Virus record (IMG/VR): IMGVR_UViG_3300008452_000999
Span: 1 to 32,395 of that record
DNA: 32,395 nt
Source of the DNA: a virus
Strand: one strand, 5' to 3'
Positions 4,596 through 23,004 of this stretch are shown here, in pieces. A program made the translations under genes and the position numbers. Each line of letters starts with the position of its first letter. Position 1 is the first letter of the stretch. A model generated the notes under the pieces. The model saw only the letters and a program-made list of their open reading frames with translations, was not told where the DNA came from and did not search any database.

Positions 4596-4958
4596 ATGGC
4601 AAACGAACAAAACCTTAAACCATTTAAGAAAGGCGAGGTAGCAAACCCTAACGGCAGACCACGTAAATACATAACCCAATTAAAAGAGCAGGGTTACAAG
4701 ATTAGCGAGGTTAACGACTGTATTCAGGTATTAATGTCAATGAACGAAGCTGAGTTAAACGCAGTGCTGACTAACGACAAAGCGACCATACTTGAAAAGA
4801 CCGTAGCCAATGCGATGATTAAAAGTTATAAAAAAGGTAGCTTGTACTCAATGGATACCTTAATGACACGTGTTTACGGCAAGCCGAAAGAAACGACAGC
4901 CGTAGAGAATAGCGGTAAGATTGAATTTATTATTACTAAGGGCAAAACAATCCTTTAA
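4596..4958 (+). CDS. Terminase small subunit (DUF5681-type N-terminus)
   Basis: A 120-residue protein starting MANEQNLKPFKKGEVANPNG then RPRKY. The FKKGxxxNPNGRP signature is the DUF5681-type N-terminal motif found on many phage small terminases and related DNA-binding proteins. The middle is helical and includes LEKTVANAMIKSYKKGS. TRVYGKPKE (about 89-97) is a common small-terminase ending. It lies directly before the large subunit, as expected. It should recognise viral DNA and regulate packaging by the large subunit. No classical HTH is obvious by eye. Confidence 0.8.
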   Translation: MANEQNLKPFKKGEVANPNGRPRKYITQLKEQGYKISEVNDCIQVLMSMNEAELNAVLTNDKATILEKTVANAMIKSYKKGSLYSMDTLMTRVYGKPKETTAVENSGKIEFIITKGKTIL

Positions 4959-4959
4959 T

Positions 4960-6114
4960 GTGCAGATACACATACCGGAACTCCACAATAACCAACAAGC
5001 TATATTCGATGACAGTTCACGGTTTAGAGTGGTATGTTGTGGTAGACGCTTTGGCAAATCCGAACTGGCTCAACTGGAGATTATATTCTCAGCTATAAAA
5101 GGCGAGTCAGTCGCTTACATTACACCTACCTACCAACTGGCAAAGACATTCTTTAATAAGTTAATTAAGGTAGTGCCGTTTGAGAATAACAAGAGCGACT
5201 TAATTATTGACTTTCCCAACGATGGGAGTGTTATGTTCTTTTCAGGCGAGCGTTTAGATTCTTTACGAGGTCGGAAGTTTCACCTGGTTATAGTAGACGA
5301 GGCCAGTTTTATACCTAACTTAGAAGAGGGTTGGCTTAACTCCATCCGGCCTACATTGACAGATTACAAAGGCCGTGCGTTATTCCTATCAACTCCAAAG
5401 GGTAAGAATTTCTTTTACAATTTATTTCTGCGTAACGGTGAAGATGGGTGGAGGTCTTTTAAGTTCACCACATACGATAACCCTTATATTGATAGGTCAG
5501 AGATTGACGATGCACGCAGACAGCTACCTGAAGCGGTCTTTGAGCAAGAGTACCTTGCTAACCCAATGGAGAACGCTGCCAATCCTTTTGGCTCTAAGTT
5601 TATTGCTCAATGCGTTAAACCTATCAGTAGAAACCCAGTAGCTTTTTATGGAATTGATCTTGCCAAGTCGCACGACTGGACTGTTATCATTGGTCTTGAC
5701 CGGGCAGGCAACGTCGCACATTACGACCGATTTCAAAAAGATTGGAAGCAGACAAGGGAAACGATACTTAGCTTAGACAAGAGCAAGCCGGTGTTTATAG
5801 ATAGCACTGGTGTAGGGGATGCCATAACCGAAGACCTACAAAGGCAGTTCCAAAATATGACTGGCTTCAAGTATACGTCAACGAGCAAGCAGCAGTTAAT
5901 GGAGTTGCTTCAATCAGCAATACAGAAAGGCGAGGTCGGCTTTCCCGATAACGAGATAAAGACAGAGTTAGAATTATTTGAGTATCAATTTACTGCGTCA
6001 GGTGTGAGGTATAACGCTCCTGCAGGGTTTCACGATGACTGCGTGAACGCTTTGGCATTGGCTATTAAGTGTAAGGATAAATACAAGCTTAGCGGTCAGT
6101 ATTGGGTTATTTAG
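4960..6114 (+). CDS. terL: Terminase large subunit (packaging ATPase/nuclease)
   Basis: A 384-residue protein from GTG 4960, one base after the small-subunit stop. A frame extension to TTG 4921 would add 13 residues inside the small-subunit gene and looks unnecessary. ATPase motifs: GRRFGKS (28-34, Walker A), HLVIVDEAS (108-116, Walker B with D113/E114) and LFLSTPKG (141-148, coupling motif). The RNase H-like nuclease acidic residues are D233 in FYGIDLAKSHDWT, D281 in VFIDSTGVGD and D359/D360 in HDDCVNA. The motor and nuclease domains are both complete. It pumps DNA into proheads at the portal and cuts concatemers. The short length suits a compact Bacteroidota phage terminase. Confidence 0.95.
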   Translation: MQIHIPELHNNQQAIFDDSSRFRVVCCGRRFGKSELAQLEIIFSAIKGESVAYITPTYQLAKTFFNKLIKVVPFENNKSDLIIDFPNDGSVMFFSGERLDSLRGRKFHLVIVDEASFIPNLEEGWLNSIRPTLTDYKGRALFLSTPKGKNFFYNLFLRNGEDGWRSFKFTTYDNPYIDRSEIDDARRQLPEAVFEQEYLANPMENAANPFGSKFIAQCVKPISRNPVAFYGIDLAKSHDWTVIIGLDRAGNVAHYDRFQKDWKQTRETILSLDKSKPVFIDSTGVGDAITEDLQRQFQNMTGFKYTSTSKQQLMELLQSAIQKGEVGFPDNEIKTELELFEYQFTASGVRYNAPAGFHDDCVNALALAIKCKDKYKLSGQYWVI

Positions 6115-6145
6115 AAACGATTAACCAATTTTAATATAATATAGT

Positions 6146-6817
6146 ATGACAGTAGAAAAGTTCCAAGAGTTGTATGTTATCTCTCAGATGGAAACAGACG
6201 AGGTATCCAAGAGTATGTTACTTGCTCAATCCTTTACCGGACTTGACGAGGAAACTATTAATAAAATGTCTCCTAAAAGATTTAACAGATTGTGTAGTAA
6301 TATCTTAAAAGATTTTGATGTACTGAAAACAGATTGGGATAATACAAACCCAAAAGCAATCATATACGCTAATGGCAGATATTATCAGATGAATTATGAT
6401 ATAAGTAAAAAACCTAACAACGCAGGAAAGTATGTTGAACTGGCTACATTTAGTGAGGATATGATTAACAACTTACACAAAATACTTGCGACTATGGCTA
6501 CTCCGTTAAAGGTTACTTGGAAAGGATTAAAGCCAACGGAACGTGATCATCCGGACATTGCCGATGATATGTTAAAGGCAGAATTTAAGGTTGCGTATCA
6601 AGCAGCGGTTTTTTTTTACATAGTTTTCAAAGAATCAATGAAGAGTTTAAGCACTTATTTGATAGAGGAGTTACCGATGGAGAAGAGGGCGGAGTTTCTG
6701 AAAGCAATGGAACTTTTAACAAGTATTTCGGATGGATTTACTCTGCCAAAATGGTATCTGAATTGGAAAGCATCCCACTTGAAGCAGTATGGGGTTTACC
6801 TACCAGACAATTTTTAA
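6146..6817 (+). CDS. Tail assembly chaperone, unshifted product (gpG-like)
   Basis: A 223-residue zero-frame product. The N-terminus (MTVEKFQELYVISQMETDEV) and the AGKYVELATFSEDMINNLHK segment resemble tail assembly chaperones of Bacteroidota phages. After residue 157 the zero frame continues with a helical tail to TAA 6815-6817. The codons GTT TTT TTT TAC at 6608-6619 form a nine-T run (6609-6617). Just there the -1 frame becomes open after TAA 6586-6588 and carries a different, domain-like extension. By analogy with lambda gpG/gpGT this gene would yield two products that bind the tape measure and tail tube during assembly. It lies unusually far upstream of the tape measure gene, right after the terminase. 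Confidence 0.75.
   Translation: MTVEKFQELYVISQMETDEVSKSMLLAQSFTGLDEETINKMSPKRFNRLCSNILKDFDVLKTDWDNTNPKAIIYANGRYYQMNYDISKKPNNAGKYVELATFSEDMINNLHKILATMATPLKVTWKGLKPTERDHPDIADDMLKAEFKVAYQAAVFFYIVFKESMKSLSTYLIEELPMEKRAEFLKAMELLTSISDGFTLPKWYLNWKASHLKQYGVYLPDNF
6609..6617 (+). promoter_or_regulatory. T9 slippery run for -1 frameshift in tail chaperone
   Basis: Nine consecutive T residues read GTT TTT TTT TAC in the zero frame. A -1 slip with the heptamer T TTT TTT keeps both tRNAs fully paired and places the ribosome on codon TTA 6616-6618. The -1 frame has stops immediately upstream (TGA 6565, TAA 6586) and is then open to 6900, so the slip site sits exactly at the beginning of the overlap. Polymerase slippage on the homopolymer could give the same product. 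I did not identify a convincing downstream pseudoknot by eye. Confidence 0.65.
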
Positions 6818-6900
6818 ACGATTTACTTTACATAAAAGAAAAGAACAAAGAGGATGAGTTACAATATAGGAGAAGCACAAGCAAGATTGCTCGCCACTGA
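6616..6900 (+). CDS. -1 frame extension of tail assembly chaperone (gpT-like part of gpGT)
   Basis: From the T9 site, the -1 frame runs 94 codons to TGA 6898-6900. It contains a Gly/Ser/Glu-rich linker (DGEEGGVSESNG) and then a domain with FGWIYSAKMVSELESIP, LEAVWGLPTRQFLNDLLYIK and a charged end. This ending (FGWIY, then a LP-x-x-x-FLN-x-L-x-Y-x-K helix) matches what follows the chaperone domain in related Bacteroidota phages, while no separate start codon serves it. The fusion would be 157 + 94 = 251 residues. It overlaps the next gene by 47 bases. The frameshift itself is inferred, not observed. Confidence 0.65.
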   Translation, partial: LHSFQRINEEFKHLFDRGVTDGEEGGVSESNGTFNKYFGWIYSAKMVSELESIPLEAVWGLPTRQFLNDLLYIKEKNKEDELQYRRSTSKIARH

Positions 6901-7504
6901 TTTTTTGACTCAGAACGCAGAGGTACAAGTTCAGTATGATTTGATGAATAGCATACTTGATAAATATGCTTCTGATTTTCTTGTTGAATTAAAGAACAAC
7001 TATAATGAAATGGGTGTTGCTGCCGGAGGTAATTTAGTAGACAAGGCAGAGGTTGAGGTTTATGAAAATGCAAGAGTAATTAAACTGCCATATTATTACG
7101 ACTTTCCGAACAAGGGTGTTAAGGGTTGGGGTAGTGATCGAAATGCTCCTACTTCTGATTATCAGTTTAAGACAAAAGGTATGAGCGACGAGGGAAGACA
7201 ATCAATAAGAACATACCTACAAAGTGCAAAGGGTAAAAGTAAGATAACTAAAACAGAAAAATCCTATGGTGGTGTAGAGAGAAAATCTAAAAAAATAAGT
7301 CAAAACACAAACCCATTAGACAAAGCAGTTAATAGAGCAGTTTGGATGATTAAGAAATACGGTATAAAAACTAACCCATACTTTGATAAGTCGTATCAAA
7401 GTGTGTTCAAAGATTTAGATGTAACAGTCGTAGACGTAAGTGCAGAGGTTGTAGCTATTATGGTTAAAATTAATTTGGAAGATATAAACAACAGAACAGT
7501 ATGA
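6854..7504 (+). CDS. Putative neck or tail-completion structural protein
   Basis: A 216-residue protein with a helical N-terminal third, then VIKLPYYYDFPNKGVKGWGS (about residues 75-94), a basic, lysine-rich middle (about 120-155) and a beta-like C-terminus (DLDVTVVDVSAEVVAIMVKI). The position between chaperone and distal tail proteins, and an ATGA overlap with the next structural gene, place it in the virion assembly operon. The YYYDFPxKGxKGxGS motif occurs in Bacteroidota phage virion genes of uncertain role; a head-tail or tail-completion function is only a guess. Confidence 0.6.
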   Translation: MSYNIGEAQARLLATDFLTQNAEVQVQYDLMNSILDKYASDFLVELKNNYNEMGVAAGGNLVDKAEVEVYENARVIKLPYYYDFPNKGVKGWGSDRNAPTSDYQFKTKGMSDEGRQSIRTYLQSAKGKSKITKTEKSYGGVERKSKKISQNTNPLDKAVNRAVWMIKKYGIKTNPYFDKSYQSVFKDLDVTVVDVSAEVVAIMVKINLEDINNRTV

Positions 7505-8670
7505 GCATAACCAGTTTAATAAGTCCAAGCGGTGAGGTAGGAGTTCAGGACTCTTTGTGGCACGTTGCCTATTCAGACAACTCAGGACAGACCGACTTCA
7601 AGTATGTATTTGACGTTTACAATGGAAACACTCAGCTTGTAAGGGTAAAGTTATTCCCTGATCCTACAACCGGCAGAGGATACTTTGACGCTGCTCCCGT
7701 AGTGCGTAACGAGTTTTCAGTTAGTTGGTTTGAGCCGACCGGTACTGGTGTATTCATAAAGCAACCAAGTGCAAGCGGTGAGATTTCGTTGACCTATAAC
7801 ATTCGTGTAGGCGAGGACTATTCAGGACTTACTACATTGAACTTAGCAAGCGGTAACGTAACTGCGTATAACTGGCGGCCTCCATTATTTAACCGTAAGC
7901 AAAGCACTACGTCTGTTTATGCCAATAACTATATGACCAATAGAAAGAAAGTTGGTAAGATAGGAATAGGTGAACACTTGTATATCCCATACAAGGGCAG
8001 CGGTACGATACGACTGAACTACCAAACCTACGATGGGAATAACACGCTTGTCGCTTCCGGTAATTCAAGTACCTACTCGGCAAGTGGATACGTTCAGTTA
8101 GACATTGGTACGGCTGCGGTTAATACTTCGGCAGGGAGTAGTGTAGTTACTTCGGCTACCAATTACTACAAGGTAAGGATTGAAAATCAAACGACCTCGC
8201 AGTTCTCGGAGTGGTTTACGGTATACGTTGACTGCGACCATCGGTACACTCCATACTGTCTGCACTTTGTCAACCAGTACGGAATGTATGAGACGATGCG
8301 ATTCAGCAAGGCAAGCAAGCTGAGTATGAGTATAGAGCGTAAGACATACGAGAAACTTCCTGAACGGTTTACCAATACTGAGGTAACGTATTACGATACT
8401 AATAATGTCTATCACGAAACAAAGATTAACTATGCATCTAAATTCAACTGGATGTACAAGCTGACCTCTGACTTGTTGATTGACCAAGATTATGTTTGGC
8501 TGAGCGAGTTGGTTACTGCTCCAATTATTTACTTTGAGTATGAGAGCGACTTTTACCCGGTAACAATAGCAGCAACTACCTATGACTATGTAGTTCAAAA
8601 GATTGATAGCTTGAAGCCATTAGTAGTTGATATTGAGTTAAACCAAAAAAGAAACGGATTCCAACGATGA
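7501..8670 (+). CDS. Distal tail/baseplate structural protein
   Basis: A 389-residue, beta-rich protein of low cysteine content. In the C-terminal half, YCLHFVNQYGMYETMRFSKA and then SIERKTYEKLP resemble a tail-associated protein family of Bacteroidota phages in which a strand motif (F-x-N-x-Y-G-x-x-E/D) precedes a series of paired strands. The ATGA overlap with the 711-residue tail protein is the usual arrangement for this pair. It is expected to form part of the tail tip or the tail-to-fibre junction. It has no enzymatic motif. Confidence 0.7.
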   Translation: MSITSLISPSGEVGVQDSLWHVAYSDNSGQTDFKYVFDVYNGNTQLVRVKLFPDPTTGRGYFDAAPVVRNEFSVSWFEPTGTGVFIKQPSASGEISLTYNIRVGEDYSGLTTLNLASGNVTAYNWRPPLFNRKQSTTSVYANNYMTNRKKVGKIGIGEHLYIPYKGSGTIRLNYQTYDGNNTLVASGNSSTYSASGYVQLDIGTAAVNTSAGSSVVTSATNYYKVRIENQTTSQFSEWFTVYVDCDHRYTPYCLHFVNQYGMYETMRFSKASKLSMSIERKTYEKLPERFTNTEVTYYDTNNVYHETKINYASKFNWMYKLTSDLLIDQDYVWLSELVTAPIIYFEYESDFYPVTIAATTYDYVVQKIDSLKPLVVDIELNQKRNGFQR

Positions 8671-10802
8671 CAAGGATATTCATAGAAGACCAAGAGTTAG
8701 ACGTCAATCAAGGGTTTACTAACCAGTTAACCTATTCGGTCGATGACCTGAATAACTTAGATAGTAAAACTACCTCGTTCAGTAAGACGATAGTCCTGCC
8801 CGGTACGAATACCAATAACCGACTACTCGGTAATATCTTTGAGGTGGGTAACGCTAACTTTACAGTCGACTCTGACAGAAACCTTGCGTATAACTTTAAC
8901 GCTTCCAAGTCAGCAAAGGCACGGATTGAGATGGATGGCATTCAGGTAATGAAAGGCACTTTGCGTCTGTTAGAGATTATTGTCGATGGGGATTACATAG
9001 AGTACGAGGTAGCTTTGTTTGGTGAGTTAGGCGGCTTTGTTTCAAAATTAGGTGCAAAGAAATTAACAGACCTGAACTTCTCAGCTTACAACCATACCTA
9101 TAACATCACTAACATTGCGAATAGTTGGGATAGTGCCAATGCAGGACAAGGGTACTATTATCCTTTGATTGATTACGGAAATGTGAGCAGTCCGACAAAC
9201 CCATTATTCTCAAAGAGAAACTATTACTTTACTGCCTTTCGGCCTGCCTTATTTGTTAGAGAATATATTAGTAAGATAATAACCGATGCCGGTTATACGT
9301 TTGAGAGTGCTTTTTTTGATACTGACTTTTTTAAGCGGTTGATTATTCCTAACAATCAGACACGGCTACAAGTAAAAAGAAATAGGATATTTTCAGCCAG
9401 TCCGACAAGTACGGTAGACAGAGGTAACGCTATAACTTTGGGGAATCAGGTACTCGGTAGCTTTACCACTACGGACAGTAAGACGTTTACTTACACCGGA
9501 GCGACTACATTTAACGGTACTATTAACTGCAACTTTGTTGGTAGTTGGACTTTACCATTCGAGCCAATAAGCGGAAGCGGTATAGGAAGATTCAACCTTT
9601 ACAAAAACGGCTCTTTGTATGTAGAGGGTAACACAGCAGGCGGTATATTTTTTAACACAATACCTGCAACGGTAGGAGGCATCGGTAATAATTATACTTC
9701 CGAGAGTTTCACAATGCAGGTTTCTTTTGTTGCTACCTTAAATACTAACGATACATTTAAGATAAATTTTGACACTTACTCTGGTGCTTCAATAGTTAGG
9801 TTATCATTCACCGGTAACTCGGTAACGGTGGATTCAGATAAGCCAACTTTCACGGCTATTACATTGAACGAAACGGTAACCGTATCGGACACGATACCTG
9901 CTAACATACTGCAAAAAGATTTCTTTGCCTCTGTTATTAAGCTATTTAATTTAATGGTTACCGAGGACAAGTATAAAGAAAAGCACTTGGTCATTGAGCC
10001 GTATGTGGATTTCTACGACTTAGACCGAGCCAGTTATCAGGACTGGACTAACAAGTTAGATAGGTCGCAAGTGTTAAAGATTAAACCGATGTCTGAGGTT
10101 AACGCTCGGTACTATCAGTTCAAGTATAAACAAGATAACGACTTCTATAACGAGAAGTATCGGAAGCAATACGCTGAGGGTTATGGAGACAGAATCTTTG
10201 ACAATAACTTAGAGTTCGCAAAAGAAACGGATAGTGTAGAGGTTATCTTTTCAGCTACTCCATTGGTTGGTTATCAGAACGAGGATAAAATTGTTAGTAC
10301 AATTTTTAAGCAGAACAATAACGTAGAGGAAACAACCGAACACAACATACGTATACTGCAAGCCAAAAAGATTACAGACGTGGCTTCGTGGAAAGTATAC
10401 AATTCAACTACCAATGTTTTTAATATCCCTAACACGTTAGGCACTTATACTGTTTATCCTTATGCCGGACATTTAGACGATCCTGACGTTCCGGCTGCCG
10501 ATATAAACTTTGGAGCAACGAAAGAACTTTATTTTACTTTGTTATCCGGTGCTTTGTCTAACAATATCTTTAACGCTTACTACTCTCCGTATATGGCAGA
10601 GATAACAGACAAGGACTCACGGCTACTGACTTGTAAAATGAAACTGACGCAGCAAGATATTTTTAACCTTGACTTTGGCCGCTTTGTTTACATTGACGGA
10701 GTATTATATCGGTTGACTAAAATAAAGGACTGGAGCGAGAACGAGATATGTGAGGTTGAATTATTGAGAGTTATTTATACAACCTACAATTTGAATTTAT
10801 GA
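8667..10802 (+). CDS. Large tail-tip structural protein (Bacteroidota phage type)
   Basis: A 711-residue protein beginning MTRIFIEDQELDVNQGFTNQ. TSFSKTIVLPGTNTNNRLLG (about residues 36-55), YYYPLIDYG (about 162-170) and FRPALFVREYISKIITDAGY (about 191-210) form a signature seen in the principal distal-tail protein of Bacteroidota siphophages and prophages. The middle (about 240-400) is a threonine/serine-rich beta domain that may be variable. The C-terminal third (DKDSRLLTCKMKLTQQDIFN and onward) looks like an oligosaccharide-binding or baseplate hub fold. I infer a hub-like role at the tail tip. It is coupled by ATGA to both neighbours. Confidence 0.75.
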   Translation: MTRIFIEDQELDVNQGFTNQLTYSVDDLNNLDSKTTSFSKTIVLPGTNTNNRLLGNIFEVGNANFTVDSDRNLAYNFNASKSAKARIEMDGIQVMKGTLRLLEIIVDGDYIEYEVALFGELGGFVSKLGAKKLTDLNFSAYNHTYNITNIANSWDSANAGQGYYYPLIDYGNVSSPTNPLFSKRNYYFTAFRPALFVREYISKIITDAGYTFESAFFDTDFFKRLIIPNNQTRLQVKRNRIFSASPTSTVDRGNAITLGNQVLGSFTTTDSKTFTYTGATTFNGTINCNFVGSWTLPFEPISGSGIGRFNLYKNGSLYVEGNTAGGIFFNTIPATVGGIGNNYTSESFTMQVSFVATLNTNDTFKINFDTYSGASIVRLSFTGNSVTVDSDKPTFTAITLNETVTVSDTIPANILQKDFFASVIKLFNLMVTEDKYKEKHLVIEPYVDFYDLDRASYQDWTNKLDRSQVLKIKPMSEVNARYYQFKYKQDNDFYNEKYRKQYAEGYGDRIFDNNLEFAKETDSVEVIFSATPLVGYQNEDKIVSTIFKQNNNVEETTEHNIRILQAKKITDVASWKVYNSTTNVFNIPNTLGTYTVYPYAGHLDDPDVPAADINFGATKELYFTLLSGALSNNIFNAYYSPYMAEITDKDSRLLTCKMKLTQQDIFNLDFGRFVYIDGVLYRLTKIKDWSENEICEVELLRVIYTTYNLNL

Positions 10803-11197
10803 TAATAAAATACTTTGACGAGTTTGAGGGCAACTTCATAGACATTACCGGTAACACTGGTAGCACGTTGGCTTATGGTGCAGGCGGTTGGACTACTTCG
10901 CAGGGTTATCTTTCCTTAATAATGTTAATCAGCCAAAGCGGAGGGGATGATCCTGACCTTGTAGAATTAGAGAATACTACCGGAATGACTGTAACTCCGG
11001 TAAGAACTGCGGCAGGTGATTACAGATTGAATTTTAGTGATACCTTGTTAAGTCAGGGCAAGACGTTCATAATGATTCAGCAAACCGATACAAGTCCTAT
11101 CTACGCAAACAGACAAGACGAGGATACTATAAGCATAACAGCGAGCGGTGATGACATATTGAATTTTACTTCTTTTGAATTAAGAATATACAATTAA
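10799..11197 (+). CDS. Small beta-rich virion protein, putative tail appendage
   Basis: A 132-residue protein rich in Gly, Thr and Ser (for example ITGNTGSTLAYGAGG) that ends FTSFELRIYN. It overlaps the large tail-tip gene by ATGA and is followed at 13 bases by the tape measure gene, so it is translated with the tail module. The composition fits a small appendage or decoration protein. I do not recognise a family. Confidence 0.6.
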   Translation: MIIKYFDEFEGNFIDITGNTGSTLAYGAGGWTTSQGYLSLIMLISQSGGDDPDLVELENTTGMTVTPVRTAAGDYRLNFSDTLLSQGKTFIMIQQTDTSPIYANRQDEDTISITASGDDILNFTSFELRIYN

Positions 11198-11209
11198 AAA
11201 TAAATAGCA

Positions 11210-13357
11210 ATGGCAGAACAAGTAGCAGCGGTAACGGTACAAGTAGACAGTAGTCAGGCAATTCAATCAATGTCTGAATTAAGAGGTCAGATACAATCTG
11301 CTAACGACAGATTGCTTCAAATGATTAATCAGTTTGGCGAGGGATCAGCAGAGGCAGCACAAGCCGCTACGGAAGTGCAACGTCTAAGAGGACAAATTGA
11401 AGCAGCGAATAGATTAACTCAGGCAATGGATCCTGCCGCACCATTCAACGCAGTTATGGGTGTTTTGGGTGGTATTGCAGGTGGTATTGCAGCCGTGCAA
11501 GGTGCTATGGCTTTATTTGGTAGTGAGAGTAAAGAGGTAGAACAAGTTCTTTTGAAAGTCAATGCTGCTATGGCTTTGGCTTCCGGTATCAATGCCGTTA
11601 CTCAATCAATAGAGTCATTCTCTACATTAGCCGCAACACTTCAAAGAATACCAATTATTAATACGATTATCACTGCAACACAAAGAATGTGGAATCAGGC
11701 GGTTGCTGCTAACCCTATTATGACAATGGTTGCTGCCATTACGCTTGCGGTAGCCGCCATTGGTGCTTTGGCTTATTGGTTTATTAAATCTGCAAGTGAT
11801 GCTAAGAAACAACAAGAGCAGATTAAAAAGAATAAAGAGGAGTTGGATAGGTTTAAGCAAGCGATGAAAGATCAAGACATTGTTTTTGAAAGGGCTCAAA
11901 AACATCAGCTTGAAATGGCAAAAGCAAGTGGTGCAAATACAGAAGCTATCCGTAAACTGGAAAGGAAATTAATTGACGAGAAAATAGCTTATGCAGAGGC
12001 AGCAGCCGCAGCCGCTTTGAATACTGTGGAAATTAACAAAAATAGATTAGCAAACTTAAAAGCAGCCGATGCAGGTAAAGATGAAATTAAAGCACAACAA
12101 GAGGTTGTTGATGCTTCAAGAGAACTATTGAAACAAAAGAATGAGGATGTAAAAAAAGCAGGTAATGAAAGATTGGATTTAATAAATAGGCAAGCGGTAG
12201 AAGTAAAGCAAGAACAAGTTAACGCAGAAAAAGAAGATCGAGAGCGTAGAAAAGAAGCAGCAAAAAAAGCGAGTGAAGATGCAGCAAAAGAAGCAGAGGA
12301 TAGGAAAAAAAGAAGAGAAGAGGAAAGAAAACAAATACAAGAAGAAACAAAAGCATCAGCAGAAAGAACAAAAGCATTAAATAATGAAATAGAATTACAA
12401 AAAATACAAGATGAAACTGCACGTGCTTTAAGGAAATTAGAAATAGAAAAAAAGGCAGCAGAAGATTCTTTGAAATTAAGCAAGGCAACAGAGGAGCAGA
12501 AAGCAAAAGAACTTAAAGCTATAAATGATAAATACTTACTTGATAAAGCAGCTATTGAAGAGAAGGCACGTAAAGACAAAGAAGCAAAGGATAATGAGGC
12601 AAGACAAAAAGAACTACAAAACGAACAAGCTACTTTTGACCTTGCTTTTCAAGCGAGAATGCTAAGAGAAACTAACGAGTTTACAAAACGTCAAGAGCAG
12701 GAAGCCGTTAGAAATCAGCAAGAAGTTGACAAGTTATACGCTTTATTAAATAATAAAGAAATAAAGCAGGAGGTCTTTAATAGAAGAAGAGAATCACTGC
12801 AACAAATAAACGAGTTCAACGTACAAAAAATAGCCGAGGATTCTGCAAAGGCACAAAAAGAAATTGACGAGAAGGCGTTTCAGGCCAAGATGGATGCTTA
12901 TGGCAAAATAGGTGCAATGCTTGGCAGCTTCTCTGAGTTAGTAGGAAAAGAAACGGCAGCCGGTAAAGCGTTAGCAGTTGCTCAGGCAAGTATTGATACT
13001 TATACTGCGGCTTGGTCTGCTTTTAAGAACGCACAAAAAAACCCGATTTCTATTATCGGTCCGGCTTATCCATACATACAAGCAGGTCTTGCTGTTGCCG
13101 GTGGTATTGCTAACATTAAAAAAATACTTGCAGTGCCAGTACCCGGTAAAGGTGGTGGTGGTGGAACTGCTCCATCAGGAGGAGTCAATGCTTCGGTCAA
13201 CGCACCAATACCAGTACAAGCCAGTACGACAATGCTTGACCAAAACCAAGTTAATCAGATGGCATCGGCTACGGCAAGAGCGTTTGTAGTCGAGTCCGAC
13301 GTTAGCGGAAACCAAGAGAGAATAAGACGCTTAAACAGAGCAGCGAGAATAAATTAA
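11210..13357 (+). CDS. Tape measure protein
   Basis: A 715-residue protein. The N-terminus is VAAVTVQVDSSQAIQSMSEL followed by coiled helices. Hydrophobic glycine-rich helices follow (AVMGVLGGIAGGIAAVQGAM, about residues 79-98, and ANPIMTMVAAITLAVAAIGA, about 167-186). A very long charged coiled coil rich in Lys/Glu/Ala spans about 195-570. The C-terminal region has hydrophobic segments and a GKGGGGG hinge. This architecture is diagnostic. It sets tail length and forms part of the DNA ejection path; at about 1.5 angstrom per residue a tail near 100 nm is expected, which supports siphovirus morphology. Long minus-strand open frames across this region are by-products of the Lys/Glu/Ala codons. 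Confidence 0.92.
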   Translation: MAEQVAAVTVQVDSSQAIQSMSELRGQIQSANDRLLQMINQFGEGSAEAAQAATEVQRLRGQIEAANRLTQAMDPAAPFNAVMGVLGGIAGGIAAVQGAMALFGSESKEVEQVLLKVNAAMALASGINAVTQSIESFSTLAATLQRIPIINTIITATQRMWNQAVAANPIMTMVAAITLAVAAIGALAYWFIKSASDAKKQQEQIKKNKEELDRFKQAMKDQDIVFERAQKHQLEMAKASGANTEAIRKLERKLIDEKIAYAEAAAAAALNTVEINKNRLANLKAADAGKDEIKAQQEVVDASRELLKQKNEDVKKAGNERLDLINRQAVEVKQEQVNAEKEDRERRKEAAKKASEDAAKEAEDRKKRREEERKQIQEETKASAERTKALNNEIELQKIQDETARALRKLEIEKKAAEDSLKLSKATEEQKAKELKAINDKYLLDKAAIEEKARKDKEAKDNEARQKELQNEQATFDLAFQARMLRETNEFTKRQEQEAVRNQQEVDKLYALLNNKEIKQEVFNRRRESLQQINEFNVQKIAEDSAKAQKEIDEKAFQAKMDAYGKIGAMLGSFSELVGKETAAGKALAVAQASIDTYTAAWSAFKNAQKNPISIIGPAYPYIQAGLAVAGGIANIKKILAVPVPGKGGGGGTAPSGGVNASVNAPIPVQASTTMLDQNQVNQMASATARAFVVESDVSGNQERIRRLNRAARIN

Positions 13358-13385
13358 CTAAATTAATAACCATAAATAAAAACCA

Positions 13386-14762
13386 ATGTTACCAGTTTAC
13401 GAGTTAAAAATCAGCGAGAAAATAGACGATGAGAGCGAGGTTGAGTTTGTCAGCTTAGTCGACGCTCCTGCAATCCAACGTGATTACTTAGTATTTAACG
13501 AGCAGTTTGTAGAGCCAAAATCAGGCGAGAACAAAGACGAGTACATATCTCGATGTATCGAGTATCAGATAAACGAGGGCAAAGACCAAGACCAAGCTGC
13601 GGCCATTTGTTACTCTACTTGGGAGAATAAGTTTAACCAAGAGTTAGATATTTACGGATATAAGCCGAAGCATTTTGATATGTGTCCGGGAGCTGTTGAA
13701 ACCTTTACCCATTTGGTAAGTATGAATGTCGGTGTCGACGAGCAAGGTATGGTAAGGTCTGCGGCTCAGATAGCAGATACAATCTTTCGTATTGAGAAAG
13801 AAGTAATAAACAATAACGCTGCTACCGTTCAGCAAGTTGACGAGGTTGTTATACTTGTCGATGACTTCAAGGACTTAATGAATGAGATTGATAAGTTAGT
13901 AAATATGCAGCACGACGTTTCCTATATGGATGGGCACGTGTTAAAAGTTAAAAGCTATTTGCCTACTCAGTTAAAGTTTGAAACCTACAACGACTACCCA
14001 AAAGAAGCGAGCGAGAATGCAAAGATAGCTTTGCGATGGGCAGAGGAGAACGGATGGGGTGAGTGTGGTACTCCGGTTGGTAAAGAGAGAGCCAACCAAT
14101 TAGCGAGCGGTGAAAGTTTGAGCCGTGATACTATCGCTCGTATGGCAGCTTTTGAGCGTCATCGTCAGAACTCGCAGAAAGAGTTAGGTGATGGATGCGG
14201 AAGGTTGATGTGGTTAGCTTGGGGAGGTGATGCCGGTATTGAGTGGGCACAACGTAAACTCGAACAGATTGACAGAGAGAAAATGAGTCAAAAGTTTCAG
14301 ATAGTCAGCGAAGACCAGCGTATTATCTCCGGGCCGATAATGATAGCAGGCGAAAAAATATACCGTAATAACGACCAGTTCGGAGAGCATTACGTCGTAT
14401 TCAGTGCAGAGACAATTAAAAAGATAGCTATTAAATTCAGTAAAAAGAAATATCATAGCAAGGTTAATTTAATGCACGACAAGCCGGTTAACGGAGTTAC
14501 TATGTTTGAGAGTTTTATAGTAGATAAAAAAAGAGGTATCCAACCAATGGCAGGGTTTGAAGACGTTGCCGATGGCAGTTGGTTTGGTAGCTTTTACGTT
14601 GAGAATGAAGAGGTTTGGAAAGGTATCAAGAGCGGAGACTACAAAGGTTTTTCGGTCGAGGGTTTATTTGATTATGCAGAAGAAAAGCCGCCAATGACCA
14701 ACGAGGAAAAACTATTACAAAAAATATCCCAACTGTTAAATGTTACAATCACCGAAGATTAA
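13386..14762 (+). CDS. Mosaic prohead protease, XkdF-type, with inserted modules
   Basis: A 458-residue protein. Residues 1-40 (including EVEFVSLVDAPAI) are the usual N-terminus of XkdF-type prohead proteases. The XkdF core resumes only at 304 (FQIVSEDQRIISGPIMIAGE) and runs to about 430, ending KGIKSGDYKGFSVEGLF. H364 (NLMHD) and S376 (FESFIVD) are candidate catalytic residues. Between them lie three modules: residues 46-85 (DEYISRCIEYQINEGKDQDQ), 95-185 (FDMCPGAVETFTHLVSMN to DVSYMDGH), and 203-297 (YPKEASENAKIALRWAEENG, with GCGRLMWLAWGG near the end). It lies before the scaffold and capsid genes, as expected for a maturation protease. Protease function is inferred from family and context. 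Confidence 0.8.
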   Translation: MLPVYELKISEKIDDESEVEFVSLVDAPAIQRDYLVFNEQFVEPKSGENKDEYISRCIEYQINEGKDQDQAAAICYSTWENKFNQELDIYGYKPKHFDMCPGAVETFTHLVSMNVGVDEQGMVRSAAQIADTIFRIEKEVINNNAATVQQVDEVVILVDDFKDLMNEIDKLVNMQHDVSYMDGHVLKVKSYLPTQLKFETYNDYPKEASENAKIALRWAEENGWGECGTPVGKERANQLASGESLSRDTIARMAAFERHRQNSQKELGDGCGRLMWLAWGGDAGIEWAQRKLEQIDREKMSQKFQIVSEDQRIISGPIMIAGEKIYRNNDQFGEHYVVFSAETIKKIAIKFSKKKYHSKVNLMHDKPVNGVTMFESFIVDKKRGIQPMAGFEDVADGSWFGSFYVENEEVWKGIKSGDYKGFSVEGLFDYAEEKPPMTNEEKLLQKISQLLNVTITED

Positions 14763-14773
14763 TATAGTAGTTT

Positions 14774-15337
14774 ATGAAAGCAACAGAAATAATCGCAAAA
14801 TTGAAACTCGCATTTGACGAGATGGTTAACCCAAACATTGCTTCCGTTAAGATGGTAGAAGCTAAATTGAAAGACGGTACAGTGGTAGAAGTTACTGCCC
14901 TTGAAGTTGGCGGTATTGTTACTATTCAAGGTGTACCTGCTCCTGCCGGTGAGCATATCCTCGAAGATGGCACTAAGATTGTTCTTGATGACAAAGGTGT
15001 TATCCTTGAAATTATGCCTGCCGAAACTGAGGTTGAAGTAGAAATCGAAGCTGCTAAAAAGAAAGCCAAAATGGAAGAGGTTTTCTCAGCTTTTGAAACT
15101 GCTACTAATCAAAAGTTTGCATCTTACGAAGCTAAGTTTGCTGCTTATGAAAACAAGTTTTCTGAGTATGAAACCAAGCTGAACAAGGCCTACGGAGTGA
15201 TTGAGGGTCTGATTGAGTTGACGCAGAAACTCGCTGAAACTCCTACTGCTACTCCTGATCAAGCCGTAAAGGTTAGCAACAACTTTAACGAGGAAAAACC
15301 TAAATTTAACTACGACGTTCTTTTCGGTAAAAAATAA
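14774..15337 (+). CDS. Scaffold-like capsid assembly protein
   Basis: A 187-residue acidic protein between the protease and major capsid genes. An N-terminal helix is followed by a compact beta module (VEAKLKDGTVVEVTALEVGG, then GEHILEDGTKIVLDDKG). A long coiled coil follows (about residues 97-155, with repeated FASYEAKFAAYENKFSEYE heptads), then a flexible tail ending FNYDVLFGKK. Position, acidity, coiled coil and short C-terminal tail fit a scaffolding protein cleaved by the protease. The same arrangement is common in Bacteroidota phages. Confidence 0.75.
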   Translation: MKATEIIAKLKLAFDEMVNPNIASVKMVEAKLKDGTVVEVTALEVGGIVTIQGVPAPAGEHILEDGTKIVLDDKGVILEIMPAETEVEVEIEAAKKKAKMEEVFSAFETATNQKFASYEAKFAAYENKFSEYETKLNKAYGVIEGLIELTQKLAETPTATPDQAVKVSNNFNEEKPKFNYDVLFGKK

Positions 15338-15388
15338 ATAAGAATTAAACAACAACTTTTTTAATAAACCCAAAAACCCAAACGCAAA

Positions 15389-16336
15389 ATGGCACTCAAT
15401 TTCTCAGGTCTTTCAGCGTATACTAAGCAACTGGTGCAGCCATTGTTGACCAGTGCAGTATTTGAAGCTAAGACACAACAATTAGTAAAAGATGGCGGTA
15501 TTATTCTTCCCGGTGTAAAATCTGCCGCTGCTATTCCTTTGATGGACACTGACGCATTCTTTCAAACAGATGCTTGCGGCTTTGACCCTTCAGGTACAAC
15601 GACTATCAGTCAGCGTACTGTAACAGTAGGTAAAATCAAAATCGAAGAGCGTATCTGTCCGAAAGACCTCGAGGCGTACTTCACACAAGAGGCACTTAAA
15701 GCCGGAAGCACTTACGAAGATTTCGGTAACGCTGATTTCCAAGCCGTTTACCTCGCTAAAAAGAACGCTCGTATCGCTGCTCAGTTGGAAACAAAACTTT
15801 GGACTGGTAGCGTCAGTGGCGGTGATAAGTTCGACGGTCTGTCTACTTTGATTGATGGCGGTAGTCCGGTAGATGCTAACGTTTCAGGTTACACTGGTGT
15901 AGCAACTATCTCTACTATCACATCATCTAACGTAATCGCTGCAACAGAGGGTATCTACAAAGCTATCCCAGTAGCGGTACTTTCTAAAGGTGATGCAAAG
16001 ATTTTCGTAGGTGATGACTGGTATCGTCTGTTGATCTTGGCTTATCGTGCAGACAAAATGTTTGCCTTTAACGTACAAGACAGCAACGCAAAGAGTTTCA
16101 TTCTGCCTGCTACAAACATTGAAGTAGTAGCCGTTAACGGTCTGAACGGAACTGGTGATGCTTACGCTATGTCTCTGAGCAACATCGCTATGGCCGTTGA
16201 CCTCGAAGATGAGGAAATGAACTACAAGTTGTGGTACTCAGAAGACAATAACGATGTACGTTTCCGTGTAGCTTTCAAAATCGGTATTAACGTAGCTTAC
16301 ACTAACGAATGCGTTAAATTCAAAGCTGCTATCTAA
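15389..16336 (+). CDS. Major capsid protein
   Basis: A 315-residue protein, preceded by an A-rich leader (AAACCCAAACGCAAA) and followed at once by a strong terminator. It starts MALNFSGLSAYTKQLVQPLL and continues with LVKDGGIILPGVKSAAAIPL, a phage capsid pattern in this host group. Further landmarks are KIKIEERICPKDLEAYF (about residues 82-98) and GDAKIFVGDDWYRLL (about 201-215). The composition (Ala/Thr/Val rich, few Cys) and position after protease and scaffold fit an HK97-fold capsid. Codon choice looks more regular than in accessory genes, fitting high expression. Confidence 0.9.
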   Translation: MALNFSGLSAYTKQLVQPLLTSAVFEAKTQQLVKDGGIILPGVKSAAAIPLMDTDAFFQTDACGFDPSGTTTISQRTVTVGKIKIEERICPKDLEAYFTQEALKAGSTYEDFGNADFQAVYLAKKNARIAAQLETKLWTGSVSGGDKFDGLSTLIDGGSPVDANVSGYTGVATISTITSSNVIAATEGIYKAIPVAVLSKGDAKIFVGDDWYRLLILAYRADKMFAFNVQDSNAKSFILPATNIEVVAVNGLNGTGDAYAMSLSNIAMAVDLEDEEMNYKLWYSEDNNDVRFRVAFKIGINVAYTNECVKFKAAI

Positions 16337-16349
16337 CCCAATGAAATAA

Positions 16350-16376
16350 GGGAGGTGTAAAAACCTCCCATTTTTT
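16350..16376 (+). terminator. Intrinsic terminator after major capsid gene
   Basis: GGGAGGT (16350-16356) pairs perfectly with ACCTCCC (16363-16369) around a GTAAAA loop, followed by ATTTTTT. It lies 14 bases after the capsid stop. It would reduce readthrough from capsid into the tail tube gene, letting capsid mRNA be the most abundant species. Confidence 0.9.
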
Positions 16377-16405
16377 AGAGATATTTTAGAGATATTTTAG
16401 AACTA
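16373..16405 (+). repeat. Three tandem 11-bp repeats upstream of tail tube gene
   Basis: TTTTAGAGATA is present twice exactly (16373-16383 and 16384-16394) and a third time as TTTTAGAACTA (16395-16405, two mismatches). The array begins inside the T-tail of the capsid terminator and ends 15 bases before ATG 16421. It may serve as an A/T-rich leader or protein-binding site, or be only a slippage product; no standard promoter is recognisable in it. Confidence 0.6.
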
Positions 16406-16420
16406 TAAAAACTAATAAAA

Positions 16421-16963
16421 ATGCCTTGTGCAATTACAACTGGATACACTATTGACTGCCGTGAGTCGGTAGGCGGTGTGGAGACCATTTGGGTTATCGA
16501 GAACAGCAACCTTTACGACGCTTCCGGTAACTCAACCGTTACAAGTGCTTCCGGCACTGTATCTGCTTTGAATAAAGTAAGCGGTAAGAAGTTCTACAAG
16601 ATTCAAGTGCCACGTGGTACTGCTTCGACTTCTAACGCTATCACTTCAAGCGTAGAGAACGGCACTATCTTCTACACGCATCAAGTTATGTTTCCGGTCA
16701 ATAGCCGTTCAGCTACTGTAAGAAACTTGGTTAACACGTTGGCTAAAAATCGCTGCACGTTTGTAACTAAGGAAATGGATGGCACTTACCGGATGTTCGG
16801 TGTAGAGTTTGGTCTGACCTTAACTACAACAGAGAGCGGTAGTGGTACTGCCAGTGGAGACCGTAACGGCTATATGATGACCTTTACATCTGACGAGCGT
16901 GAGGACTTCTTAGTAGTTCCTGCTAACATTGCGGCTACTTTGGAGAACAACGGTACTGCCTAA
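16421..16963 (+). CDS. Major tail tube protein
   Basis: A 180-residue protein starting MPCAITTGYTIDCRESVGGV. GKKFYKIQVPRGTASTSNAI (about residues 52-71) and NGTIFYTHQVMFPVNSRSAT (about 79-98) follow, and the C-terminal part includes DRNGYMMTFTSDEREDF. This sequence type is the usual tail tube protein of Bacteroidota siphophages: beta-rich, with an internal threonine/serine-rich loop. It is isolated between two terminators (16350 and 16989), which suits an abundant structural protein with its own mRNA dosage. The neighbouring portal and head-tail genes fit a virion role. Confidence 0.8.
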   Translation: MPCAITTGYTIDCRESVGGVETIWVIENSNLYDASGNSTVTSASGTVSALNKVSGKKFYKIQVPRGTASTSNAITSSVENGTIFYTHQVMFPVNSRSATVRNLVNTLAKNRCTFVTKEMDGTYRMFGVEFGLTLTTTESGSGTASGDRNGYMMTFTSDEREDFLVVPANIAATLENNGTA

Positions 16964-16988
16964 CTTTTTCAATGGTTAATAAATAAAG

Positions 16989-17015
16989 CCCTGCCCGGTA
17001 AGGGTGGGGTTTTTT
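16989..17015 (+). terminator. Intrinsic terminator after tail tube gene
   Basis: CCCTGCCC (16989-16996) pairs with GGGTGGGG (17002-17009), with two G-T wobbles, around a GGTAA loop, followed by TTTTTT (17010-17015). It ends 3 bases before the ATG of the next gene, so downstream genes depend on readthrough or on an unrecognised start site. Confidence 0.8.
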
Positions 17016-17018
17016 ACT

Positions 17019-17378
17019 ATGATACATTTAAACAAAAATAGTGCGAGTCAATACGCTTACGTAAACTTGGGAGAGTTTGCTCAAGACCTTACTTGGTTGT
17101 ATTGGAAATGTATAAATAGATTGACTGGTATTGAGTTTACTTTTTACACTGCTTTACCTTTAACTACCAATCGTTATTCTAAGGTACTTGTTGACACTAT
17201 TGATTTAAGTGATTACGACGCAGGATTATACAGTTATGAATTTTGGGCACAAAATGACGATACCACAATTCCTACTGGTGAGTCAGATGCCAAGGGTTTT
17301 TTGTATCTTCACGGTACTGCTTTCAGTCCTGACAAATACGACGAGCAGGATAATACTTTCAAAACATATCAAGGATGA
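17019..17378 (+). CDS. Small structural protein before portal
   Basis: A 119-residue protein using ATG 17019. A GTG at 17004 is in frame but lies inside the terminator stem, so it is unlikely. It starts MIHLNKNSASQYAYVNLGEF and alternates strands with aromatic residues (LYWKCINRLTGIEFTFYTAL). The IDLSDYDAGLYSYEFWAQND segment resembles small beta-sandwich phage proteins found near portal genes in Bacteroidota phages. A structural or head-tail adaptor role is inferred. It overlaps the portal start by ATGA (17375-17378). Confidence 0.7.
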   Translation: MIHLNKNSASQYAYVNLGEFAQDLTWLYWKCINRLTGIEFTFYTALPLTTNRYSKVLVDTIDLSDYDAGLYSYEFWAQNDDTTIPTGESDAKGFLYLHGTAFSPDKYDEQDNTFKTYQG

Positions 17379-19372
17379 GCGAATATAAACTTATAGAAAT
17401 AAAGTTCGACCAAGCACAGATGCCTAAATTCGAGGAGAAGAAAGGCAAGGGTTGGATTGAGTTCGGCAAGGATAACGACTACCCTGAGTATTTGCTCGGC
17501 TTGTATAACGAAAGTCCTAAGCACGGCACGCTTGTTAAAAGTAAAGCGAACTATGTCTATGGTAAAGGGTTTGAGGATGCAGGCAAGGCGAATAGTAAAG
17601 GTGATACTTGGAATGACGTATTAAAGCGGTGCGTAAAAGATGACGAGTTATATCGTGGCTTTTACCTGCAAGTTATTTACAATCGTATCGGTCAGGTTAG
17701 CGAGATTTACCATATAGAATTTCATAAGGTAAGGGTTTCAAAAGATATGAAACTTTTTTACGTTAAGAATGACTGGAAAGATGCAAGAGAGAAACCGAGA
17801 GAATATAAGGCGTTCAATCCGGCAGAGCCATACGGAGCACAAATTTTCTACTACAAAGAATACAATCCGAGTTCTTATTACTATCCAGTACCAAGCTATA
17901 TTCAAGGTCTGAATATGATTGAGGCCGATATTCAGGTGTCAAGGCATATCTTAGGCAATGCGAAGCAAGGTTGGGTTGGTAGTAAGTTGGTGCAATTAAA
18001 TAACGGTAACCCTCCCGACGAGCAAAAAGAGGAGGTAGAGAGAGGTATCTTAAAGAAGTTTACCGGTAGCGAGGGCAGACGTACTGTTATTATGTTTAAC
18101 CCATCAAGGGATAACAACGCAGAGATAACGGACTTGGGTACGTCGATGCTGACAAAAGAGGACTTCACCAATGTCAATAACCTTATCCAACAAGAGATTT
18201 TTGTCGCACATCAAATTATCAGTCCAATTCTTTTCGGTGTAAAAACTGAGGGACAGTTAGGCGGTCGTAGTGAGATTAGGGATGCTTACGAGATTTTCAA
18301 CAATGTCTACGTATCAGAAAGACAAGGCGAGTTTAATGCAATCTTTACCAAGTTCAGGAATATGAAAGGTGAGCAAGGCGAGTTTAAGATTCAGCCGGTA
18401 GAGCCGTTGAAGTTTGAATTTACAGAGGGCATAATGGCTCAGAATTTGACAAAAGACGAGATTCGTGAGTTAATGGGTAGAGAGCCGTTAAACGGACAAG
18501 CTACGGCTGATGGCTCAGTAGACGTTAATGCAGTTATAGAAAATAAGGAGAAGCTGCAAAACGATGCTATTAAGAATCTGAGCGGTCGGCAGTATCAGAA
18601 CATAATGAGAATAGTCAGAAACTACGGCAACGGCAAGCTAACGAAAGAGCAGGCAGCTTTGATGCTTCGTAATGGCTTTGGTTTAAGTGATTCCGATGTT
18701 AACGCTTTCTTAGGTATTGATGACAATCCTTTAACCGACGATGAGATACAAAAGTTCAGTGAGGATAAAGACGAGCGGTTAATTCAAGAGTTTGCCAATA
18801 CTGGTGATAACAGAGATGACTATGTTATTTTAAGGACACGCAAGGCGAGAGATTTCTACGCAGAGCAGATTGAGTTAACAAGATTAGAGGGTGAGGTCGC
18901 TAAGTTGATTAGTGAACAAAAATTTATCACTCCCGATGTTATTGCCAAAACATTAGGCGAAAGCATTGACGTTATTAACGAGATAATCGAGGAGTTAAAA
19001 GATAAAGGTATTATCAAAGAGAAAGTAACCAAGATCGGGCCGGATAAGCAGATCGAGAGAAGTTTGTTAAAGCCGTTAAGTGAAACAAACATATACGGCA
19101 AAAAGTTAGCTACATTGATGATTCGTTACTCGTATGAGTGGAAGCCGGGGTTTAGCGACGCTGACCTTTCTACATCAAGACCTTTCTGCCGTAAGATGAT
19201 TGAACTTAGTAAGACGAGAGTATGGAGCAGGGCACAAATAGAAGCTATCTCTGAGCGGTTAGGATACTCGGTTTGGGATCGCAAAGGCGGTTGGTATACT
19301 GAGCCGGATGGTACACGCAGTCCTGAATGTCGGCATCAATGGGTTTCACAAATAGTTAAAAAGAAAGATTAA
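17375..19372 (+). CDS. Portal protein with winged-helix and gpF-like C-terminal extension
   Basis: A 665-residue protein. The N-terminal half is a portal of the type found in Bacteroidota phages: KKGKGWIEFGKDNDYPEYLL (about residues 22-41), LVKSKANYVYGKGF (about 52-65), then FVAHQIISPILFGVKTEGQL (about 276-295). It continues beyond a normal portal. Residues about 490-570 are helical with a winged-helix-like segment (FITPDVIAKTLGESIDVINE). Residues 584-665 have TSRPFCRKMIE (600-610), GGWYTEPDG (55-63 of that segment) and CRHQW (652-656), a pattern of the Mu gpF/SPP1 gp7-type head morphogenesis domain. It forms the dodecameric DNA gate; the C-terminal part may replace a separate minor head protein. 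Confidence 0.85.
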   Translation: MSEYKLIEIKFDQAQMPKFEEKKGKGWIEFGKDNDYPEYLLGLYNESPKHGTLVKSKANYVYGKGFEDAGKANSKGDTWNDVLKRCVKDDELYRGFYLQVIYNRIGQVSEIYHIEFHKVRVSKDMKLFYVKNDWKDAREKPREYKAFNPAEPYGAQIFYYKEYNPSSYYYPVPSYIQGLNMIEADIQVSRHILGNAKQGWVGSKLVQLNNGNPPDEQKEEVERGILKKFTGSEGRRTVIMFNPSRDNNAEITDLGTSMLTKEDFTNVNNLIQQEIFVAHQIISPILFGVKTEGQLGGRSEIRDAYEIFNNVYVSERQGEFNAIFTKFRNMKGEQGEFKIQPVEPLKFEFTEGIMAQNLTKDEIRELMGREPLNGQATADGSVDVNAVIENKEKLQNDAIKNLSGRQYQNIMRIVRNYGNGKLTKEQAALMLRNGFGLSDSDVNAFLGIDDNPLTDDEIQKFSEDKDERLIQEFANTGDNRDDYVILRTRKARDFYAEQIELTRLEGEVAKLISEQKFITPDVIAKTLGESIDVINEIIEELKDKGIIKEKVTKIGPDKQIERSLLKPLSETNIYGKKLATLMIRYSYEWKPGFSDADLSTSRPFCRKMIELSKTRVWSRAQIEAISERLGYSVWDRKGGWYTEPDGTRSPECRHQWVSQIVKKKD

Positions 19373-22609: not shown

Positions 22610-22792
22610 ATGGAACACATAAGACAAAAGCTAAGCATTGAAGGAAGAGCAACGGAGGTTTACACCGTAGTAATTACTGAGGGTTGGACACTTCCATTAA
22701 CCGAGCATCCTTCAATACAAGACCATCCTGAGATTTTTGAAATATCAACTGACGAAATACCCGAAAACCACCAATACTTAAATTACGTCTAA
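22610..22792 (+). CDS. Small protein downstream of tail fibre
   Basis: A 60-residue protein, 5 bases after the fibre stop, ending with ENHQYLNYV. The segment HPSIQDHPEIFEISTDEIPE is an almost fixed motif of short proteins that follow fibre genes in Bacteroidota phages; they could be a fibre assembly chaperone or a small attachment subunit, which is inference. It overlaps the next start (TAATG at 22790-22794). Confidence 0.65.
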   Translation: MEHIRQKLSIEGRATEVYTVVITEGWTLPLTEHPSIQDHPEIFEISTDEIPENHQYLNYV

Positions 22793-23004
22793 TGGAAACA
22801 GCCGTACTCACTAACTACTTAATAGGTATCTTAATTACCTTGTTGACCTACTTCGCAAAACGTATAGTTGACAAAATGGACTGCATTGAAAAAAAAATGC
22901 AGGACATACTTATTAAGGATATGGAAAAAAAGAAAGACATTGAAGCACTACGCTTGGAGGTTGACAACCACGAAGAGAGAATCCAAAAACTTGAAAGAAT
23001 ATGA
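22792..23004 (+). CDS. Membrane-anchored coiled-coil protein (holin or antiholin-like)
   Basis: A 70-residue protein: one hydrophobic helix (about residues 3-20, TAVLTNYLIGILITLLTYFA), then a basic turn and a coiled coil (KKMQDILIKDMEKKKDIEAL and a second heptad stretch) to the end. An N-terminal transmembrane helix with a charged coiled-coil tail resembles XhlA-type hemolysin/holin partners. It is translated together with the two-helix holin candidate (ATGA at 23001-23004) and lies before the spanin and endolysin. Its role in lysis is inferred. Confidence 0.6.
   Translation: METAVLTNYLIGILITLLTYFAKRIVDKMDCIEKKMQDILIKDMEKKKDIEALRLEVDNHEERIQKLERI

Follow-up and report, generated by a model that had tools for sequence, protein, structure and literature searches.

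A near-invariant run of nine T in the gene after the terminase suggests two forms of a putative tail assembly chaperone in aquatic Bacteroidota-type siphophages

Does the gene that follows the terminase large subunit (TerL) gene in the viral contig IMGVR_UViG_3300008452_000999 encode one protein or two? Direct reading of the window (the whole stretch of DNA analyzed here, 32,395 nucleotides) showed that this gene contains nine consecutive T (T9) over the 0-frame codons GTT TTT TTT TAC, which place the heptamer T_TTT_TTT in the correct phase. The −1 frame is open from 6589, directly after TAA 6586–6588, to TGA 6898–6900. A slip at T|TTT|TTT would join residues 1–157, which are common to both products, to a 94-residue extension beginning with Leu TTA 6616–6618, for a fusion of 251 residues, while the 0-frame protein continues past the run into a private tail of 66 codons. 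The initial annotation had described the run, the open −1 frame and the length of the fusion, and all three were confirmed by our reading. It had also argued that no start codon explains the extension, which is true for the domain as a whole: the first in-frame starts of the −1 frame past T9, ATG 6751 and TTG 6763, both lie within the conserved domain, and 99 of 126 unique relatives have no ATG, GTG or TTG between the run and the GW motif.

We propose that this gene would yield two proteins from a single start. The 0-frame protein would be the majority product, and a minor fraction would be the fusion, in which residues 1–157 are followed by the −1-frame helical domain as a result of a one-base slip in decoding at T9. 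By analogy with lambda gpG and gpGT, coating of the tape measure protein would most likely fall to the short form, and recruitment of the tail tube protein to the less abundant long form. We regard a programmed two-product reading as very probable, whichever agent slips; the making of the fusion, the ratio of the products, their chaperone role and the identity of the slipping agent are what we infer below from comparison with relatives. The features are listed in Table 1.

Table 1. Features of the window that bear on the proposed two-product gene (positions in the window)
Feature	Position	Strand	Description
Terminase large subunit	4921..6114	+	phrog_2 7e-46, Terminase_6N/6C; directly upstream, syntenic marker
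0-frame ORF	6146..6817	+	223 aa; predicted gpG-like short product
T9 slippage run	6609..6617	+	0-frame GTT TTT TTT TAC; kept in families 1, 2 and 4
−1-frame extension	6616..6900	+	94 aa; predicted T-like domain of 251-aa fusion
Dual-frame stretch (0-frame tail and −1 extension)	6618..6817	+	synonymous-difference and resampling tests
Next gene	6854..7504	+	starts inside the −1 extension, 47-base overlap; same order in relatives
Tape measure protein	11210..13357	+	tail length tape measure PHROGs, best 7.6e-09; 4.3 kb downstream

The run of nine T is conserved at this site across relatives of the window phage. Relatives were first gathered through the neighbouring tail gene at 7501–8670, which led to 37 viral contigs; about 30 of these have a homologue between TerL and the homologue of the gene at 6854, and all of those homologues carry T9 except one (L013). 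A profile built from the fused protein retrieved 80 loci, and T9 with a −1 extension was present in 78 of the 79 that have the site, the exception being L013. In a second profile search, for which runs of eight or more were counted and leftover loci were inspected group by group, T9 was present in 46 of 47 loci, with L013 again the exception, and a truncated locus (L168) likewise has T9. L002 proved to be a chance match and was left out. Several of the profile loci repeat earlier contigs, and removal of identical proteins left 110 unique T9 sequences in the family of the window (family 1) and 15 in a second family; these sets, like the tree of 94 family 1 sequences described below, were preselected for T9 or T10, and the run-length counts come from the unselected locus sets. 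With the other T9-bearing families described next (2 and 4), the order TerL, chaperone-like gene, next gene is common to about 165 distinct IMG/VR phage sequences, all of which carry nine T (ten in two of them) at the same codons together with the −1-frame domain; these families have diverged to the point where profiles or folds alone connect them.

Family 2 (L181–L198) has a different terminase and an N-terminal part that aligns poorly, and T9 is present in 18 of 18 loci; its −1 domain is homologous to that of family 1 (hhalign prob 97.8, E 7e-13). Family 3 (L170–L180) lacks T9 and has the codons TCT or AGT followed by TTT TTC at the same position (nine loci read), that is, T_TTT_TTC; a −1 extension of the same kind lies beyond this site. 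The sites of the window and of family 3 both fit the pattern X_XXY_YYZ in the 0 frame.

Family 4 was reached by structure. No cultured phage was matched in sequence searches with proteins of families 1, 2 and 3, and two scans of genome contigs gave no prophage relatives; only a fold search with the AlphaFold2 model of the window 0-frame protein led to a cultured phage, matching I6R9M9 of Nonlabens phage P12024S (prob 1.0, E 2.4e-6). Its length of 175 aa and its position identify I6R9M9 as the product of P12024S gene 38, and when the product of this gene is aligned to the 0-frame profile, the FFY of one falls on the FFY of the other (prob 84.8, E 6.6e-6). Gene 38 lies directly after TerL, as in the window, and has T9 at 23578–23586 over the codons CTT TTT TTT TAT (0-frame LFFY), from which the −1 frame runs to 23830. 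Unlike in the window, the 0-frame tail is short (25 codons) and the locus was deposited as two hypothetical ORFs. Gene 39 (23663–23830 of JQ823122) was annotated as a small ORF in its own right, yet it corresponds to the last part of the gene 38 −1 extension, and its annotation likely needs correcting. P12024S and P12024L, whose corresponding protein is near-identical (99.4%), are both in culture and infect a marine flavobacterium, Persicivirga sp. IMCC12024 being the natural host of P12024S. Scanning with gene 38 found 63 relatives with 39 distinct extensions; T9 is present in 62 of them and T10 in one (L213), and two outlying loci beyond the 63 also have T9 with a −1 extension. The −1 domain of one family 4 member matches the family 1 profile (prob 93.5), while the P12024S extension alone gave no match to it.

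A separate observation concerns Flavobacterium phage 6H (KC959568), in which a gene of similar size (10044–10927, − strand) encodes a 191-aa hypothetical protein ending in CFFYSTR. It has T_TTT_TTC (TGT TTT TTC) at its end, followed by an unannotated open frame of 105 residues; its −1 frame meets a stop directly after the slip site.

In the relatives both frames past the run are conserved, and the two overlapping frames are joined at the conserved slip site, as in gpG/gpGT-type genes. Past the run, all 110 and 15 unique T9 sequences have tens of further codons in the 0 frame before a stop, whereas the +1 frame has a median of 7 open codons. The closest view is given by L003 (the same contig as L006 and L099), which has T9 in the same codons as the window and whose 0-frame protein and −1 extension are 60% and 69% identical to those of the window. 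At the DNA level the two are near-invariant from T9 to about 75 bases beyond, unlike in the flanks, a pattern expected from two constrained frames. Among group A sequences of family 1, the fraction of differences that are synonymous in the −1 frame is 0.24–0.29 over the first 36 overlap codons, 0.41 in the last part of the overlap and about 0.5 just beyond it, and substitutions favour the 0-frame third position in part of the overlap; in group B the dual-coding signature is weak (22 of 36 pairs). When the −1 protein was held fixed and synonymous codons were resampled, the chance of a 0 frame as open as observed ranged from 0.01 to 0.29 per sequence, these being non-independent tests. Such comparisons indicate that the −1 extension is genuine coding sequence and that, in the family of the window, the 0-frame tail is under dual-coding constraint as well. 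The initial annotation had named loss of the run, premature −1 stops in close relatives or a lack of homologues of the extension as outcomes that would speak against the fusion; we found the run kept, the −1 frame open and conserved, and many homologues, and its proposal of a −1 slip to a 251-residue fusion is well supported by this comparison.

Two explanations would remove the need for slippage in decoding. Homopolymer miscounts are possible in single metagenome contigs, and the run could in principle be such an error, or the gene a pseudogene whose 3′ end is broken; we consider this extremely improbable, as T9 recurs across contigs from many samples and in the deposited genome of a cultured phage, and both downstream frames are conserved. 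Alternatively, run length could switch at the DNA level (phase variation), with T9 genomes making the short protein and T10 genomes the fused one. L013 has the arrangement that such switching would produce: ten T at the slip site (1307–1316) and a single ORF of 246 aa, a natural in-frame fusion. However, it is the single fused T10 sequence against about 165 distinct others, and it has lost the old 0-frame tail, with a stop in that frame six codons past the run, which speaks for a stable variant, or an error, and against a switch. The other T10 sequence, L213, keeps the −1 relation: the run lies near residue 155 of the 0-frame protein and begins one base earlier, leaving the frame relation unchanged. 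Phase variation is therefore very unlikely. L013 nevertheless implies that a long-tailed short form can be dispensed with in some cases.

For the programmed slip that we favour, the run itself is more than a chance occurrence, since 6609–6617 is the sole T9 on the + strand of the window (there is one per strand) and runs of at least nine T in the coding sequence of related phages are found almost exclusively at the slip site; none is present in 460 kb of other family 1 genes. The T9 of the − strand is read on the + strand as a run of nine A at 22889–22897, within a small gene at 22792–23004 (GAA AAA AAA ATG), one of few long A runs in coding sequence.

The initial annotation had assigned the slip to the ribosome at T TTT TTT. 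The slip site stands, but the agent was its inference, and RNA polymerase fits at least equally well. If RNA polymerase added one U at T9, the resulting U10 mRNA would read straight into the extension, and we give this mechanism about an even chance. In vivo, nine A or T suffice for efficient slippage by RNA polymerase (PMC5009743), nine is the common length at which runs are avoided (PMC1088944), and the nine or ten T at the homologous site in families 1, 2 and 4 form the uninterrupted run, of about nine or more A or T, that programmed transcriptional slippage calls for. Classical programmed −1 frameshifting by tandem ribosomal slippage on U_UUU_UUU has, in our estimate, a probability slightly below one half, and both agents may contribute. 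In favour of the ribosome, T9 can be read as the heptamer plus one flanking T on each side set by the coded residues, since the flanking T's are partly constrained by coding (Val or Leu before the heptamer, Leu in the −1 frame after it), and every sequence has the heptamer in the phase required. Family 3 moreover retains T_TTT_TTC at the homologous codons, and SPP1 17.5/17.5* has the same layout with UUUUUUC, a putative ribosomal case (PMC6316719). Classic homopolymer slippage needs a longer site than T_TTT_TTC, so that, if the family 3 extension is made, the ribosome slips or once slipped in this gene lineage.

Four features mildly favour RNA polymerase: a run of exactly nine T, the absence of a silent C, the avoidance of A runs and the lack of stimulators. 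The absent C is at the eighth T. A T-to-C change there would be silent in both frames (VFFY in the 0 frame and FFL in the −1 frame are retained) and would yield U_UUU_UUC, as in family 3 and SPP1, yet it was never seen in the family 1, 2 and 4 sequences examined. TTC makes up a quarter of Phe codons, and over the tree of 94 family 1 sequences, changes number 2–16 at other conserved Phe codons and zero at the slip-site codon; this tree set was preselected for T9, but the unselected locus counts show no interrupted run either. A ribosomal preference for UUU could also keep the eighth T invariant.

Stimulatory elements, which usually accompany −1 frameshift sites but are not strictly required, were not found on either side of the run. 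A Shine-Dalgarno (SD)-like motif is absent upstream in 109 of 110 family 1 sequences, and no stable RNA structure was found downstream (mean folding z −0.2 to −0.5, pseudoknots unscored). Against ribosomal slippage it also counts that A_AAA_AAG is far more slippery than U_UUU_UUU in E. coli (PMC5009743) and that Bacteroidia ribosomes do not recognise SD sequences (PMC9976891).

Long A runs are avoided in 460 kb of other family 1 genes in every codon phase: 3 runs of at least nine A were observed against 37 expected and 33 of A8 against 67, while A7 is not avoided (192 against 185). Such strong avoidance of runs of at least nine A in all phases is a sign of a cost to the phages or their hosts. 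Its independence of codon phase favours slippage by RNA polymerase, since ribosomal heptamers would be avoided in a single phase only, although replication slippage could also underlie the avoidance of long runs. For T runs of nine this comparison has no power (0.7 expected).

Whether the gene encodes a tail assembly chaperone, as the initial annotation had it, is a question apart from the slip. We consider a gpG/gpGT-like chaperone the best reading and a likely one, given the position of the gene among virion genes, its size, the layout with two C-termini and weak profile matches. The matches are to phrog_166 'tail protein' (16 of 34 members, best 3.4e-4), phrog_18582 'tail assembly chaperone' (4 of 34 members, best 0.008) and Phage_TAC_7 (0.015–0.02, under its curated cut-off). 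In the AlphaFold2 model of the window 0-frame protein (pLDDT 83), the 0-frame tail forms confident helices (147–175 and 178–194). The extension, modelled in the T10 fusion of L013, forms a helical domain (pLDDT 93–97 over residues 201–246) preceded by a low-confidence linker, which is often acidic.

Alternatively, the frameshift could be real and the short and long products could serve tail or neck assembly in some other role, which we think improbable, at a likelihood of perhaps one in five. The identification as gpG/gpGT is not borne out by sequence similarity to lambda: comparison with lambda G and T detected no match for the products of the chaperone-like gene, no credible hit came from searches of the PDB by sequence and by fold, and the −1 domain matches nothing in PHROGs or Pfam at a trusted score. 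The gene also lies between the terminase and a neck-like gene rather than directly upstream of the tape measure gene, with four ORFs and 4.3 kb between 6817 and 11210, and this distance lowers the claim to chaperone membership, although we take adjacency to the tape measure as a usual position and not as part of the mechanism. The best profile matches are nevertheless to a tail protein, a tail assembly chaperone and Phage_TAC_7, and the succession of N-terminal domain, slip site, acidic linker, helical domain and two C-termini is the gpG/gpGT layout.

A frameshifted tail chaperone is an already known kind of gene. Like the gene of the window, lambda gpG/gpGT has one start and two C-termini produced by a low-level −1 shift (PMC5009743) and lies among virion genes. 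It differs in that the window gene has a T9 slip site and a 0-frame tail of tens of codons past it, and in that the lambda gene adjoins the tape measure gene whereas the window gene follows TerL, with no sequence similarity found. The nearest described layout, likened here by its published form, is SPP1 gp17.5/gp17.5*, in which a putative −1 shift occurs at a U-rich site well inside the ORF; the short and long forms (173 and 297 aa) have 112 residues in common, which leaves about 61 codons of private 0-frame tail (PMC6316719). Unlike in the window, the SPP1 site is UUUUUUC and not nine U, its genes have Shine-Dalgarno sites and the gene stands directly before the tape measure gene. Thermus thermophilus dnaX offers a parallel for the agent: it has nine identical A/T bases within the gene and two products, and homologues of another lineage use a ribosomal heptamer (PMC5009743, PMC1088944). 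There, slippage gives the shorter product at about 1:1, whereas in the window it is predicted to give the longer one. What appears new, in the literature found, is the near-invariant T9, its occurrence across divergent families, its replacement by T_TTT_TTC in a related family and the length of the dual-coded stretch.

The gene neighbourhood is conserved: TerL is the same upstream neighbour in the relatives and in P12024S. The gene at 6854 is possibly a gp10-like neck or tail completion protein, and its family 3 counterpart weakly matches HK97-gp10_like (E 0.021). The wider gene order of the window (4596–19372) is unusual, with terminase, chaperone-like gene, tail genes and tape measure before the protease, a probable capsid and the portal. 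A candidate tail tube protein is encoded at 16421–16963. Elsewhere, the ORFs at 28460–29485 and 28590–29396 (+) share about 800 bases in different frames and both have methyltransferase matches, one being a C-5 cytosine methylase (PF00145, 3e-49; phrog_363) and the other matching phrog_1008 'DNA methyltransferase' (1e-25), with 63 phage records by tblastn; these are possibly a widespread overlapping gene pair. The protein at 19372–20163 matches DUF6712, which is presumably common in Bacteroidota phages. An SD-like motif was absent in all 25 window genes checked, and because of this, and because P12024S infects a flavobacterium, a Bacteroidota host is likely for the window phage.

We tentatively suggest, at somewhat less than even confidence, that in a large group of aquatic Bacteroidota-type siphophages the long chaperone is made through RNA-polymerase slippage at the invariant T9, and in a sister family through the ribosome at T_TTT_TTC. 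The same protein pair would then be obtained by two decoding mechanisms, as in dnaX, with the lack of SD pairing in Bacteroidota ribosomes possibly the cause. Among the titles and abstracts found, which cover the literature incompletely, none reports a tail chaperone pair dependent on RNA-polymerase slippage; if the suggestion is true, this would be, in the literature found, the first such pair proposed. It would also be a clean comparative case of how a phage sets the ratio of two proteins where host ribosomes work without Shine-Dalgarno pairing. For annotation, gene callers miss or split the −1 domain across the whole phage group, and T9 in the gene right after TerL provides a simple signature by which it can be recognized. 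P12024S and P12024L, together with their host, make the question directly testable in the laboratory.
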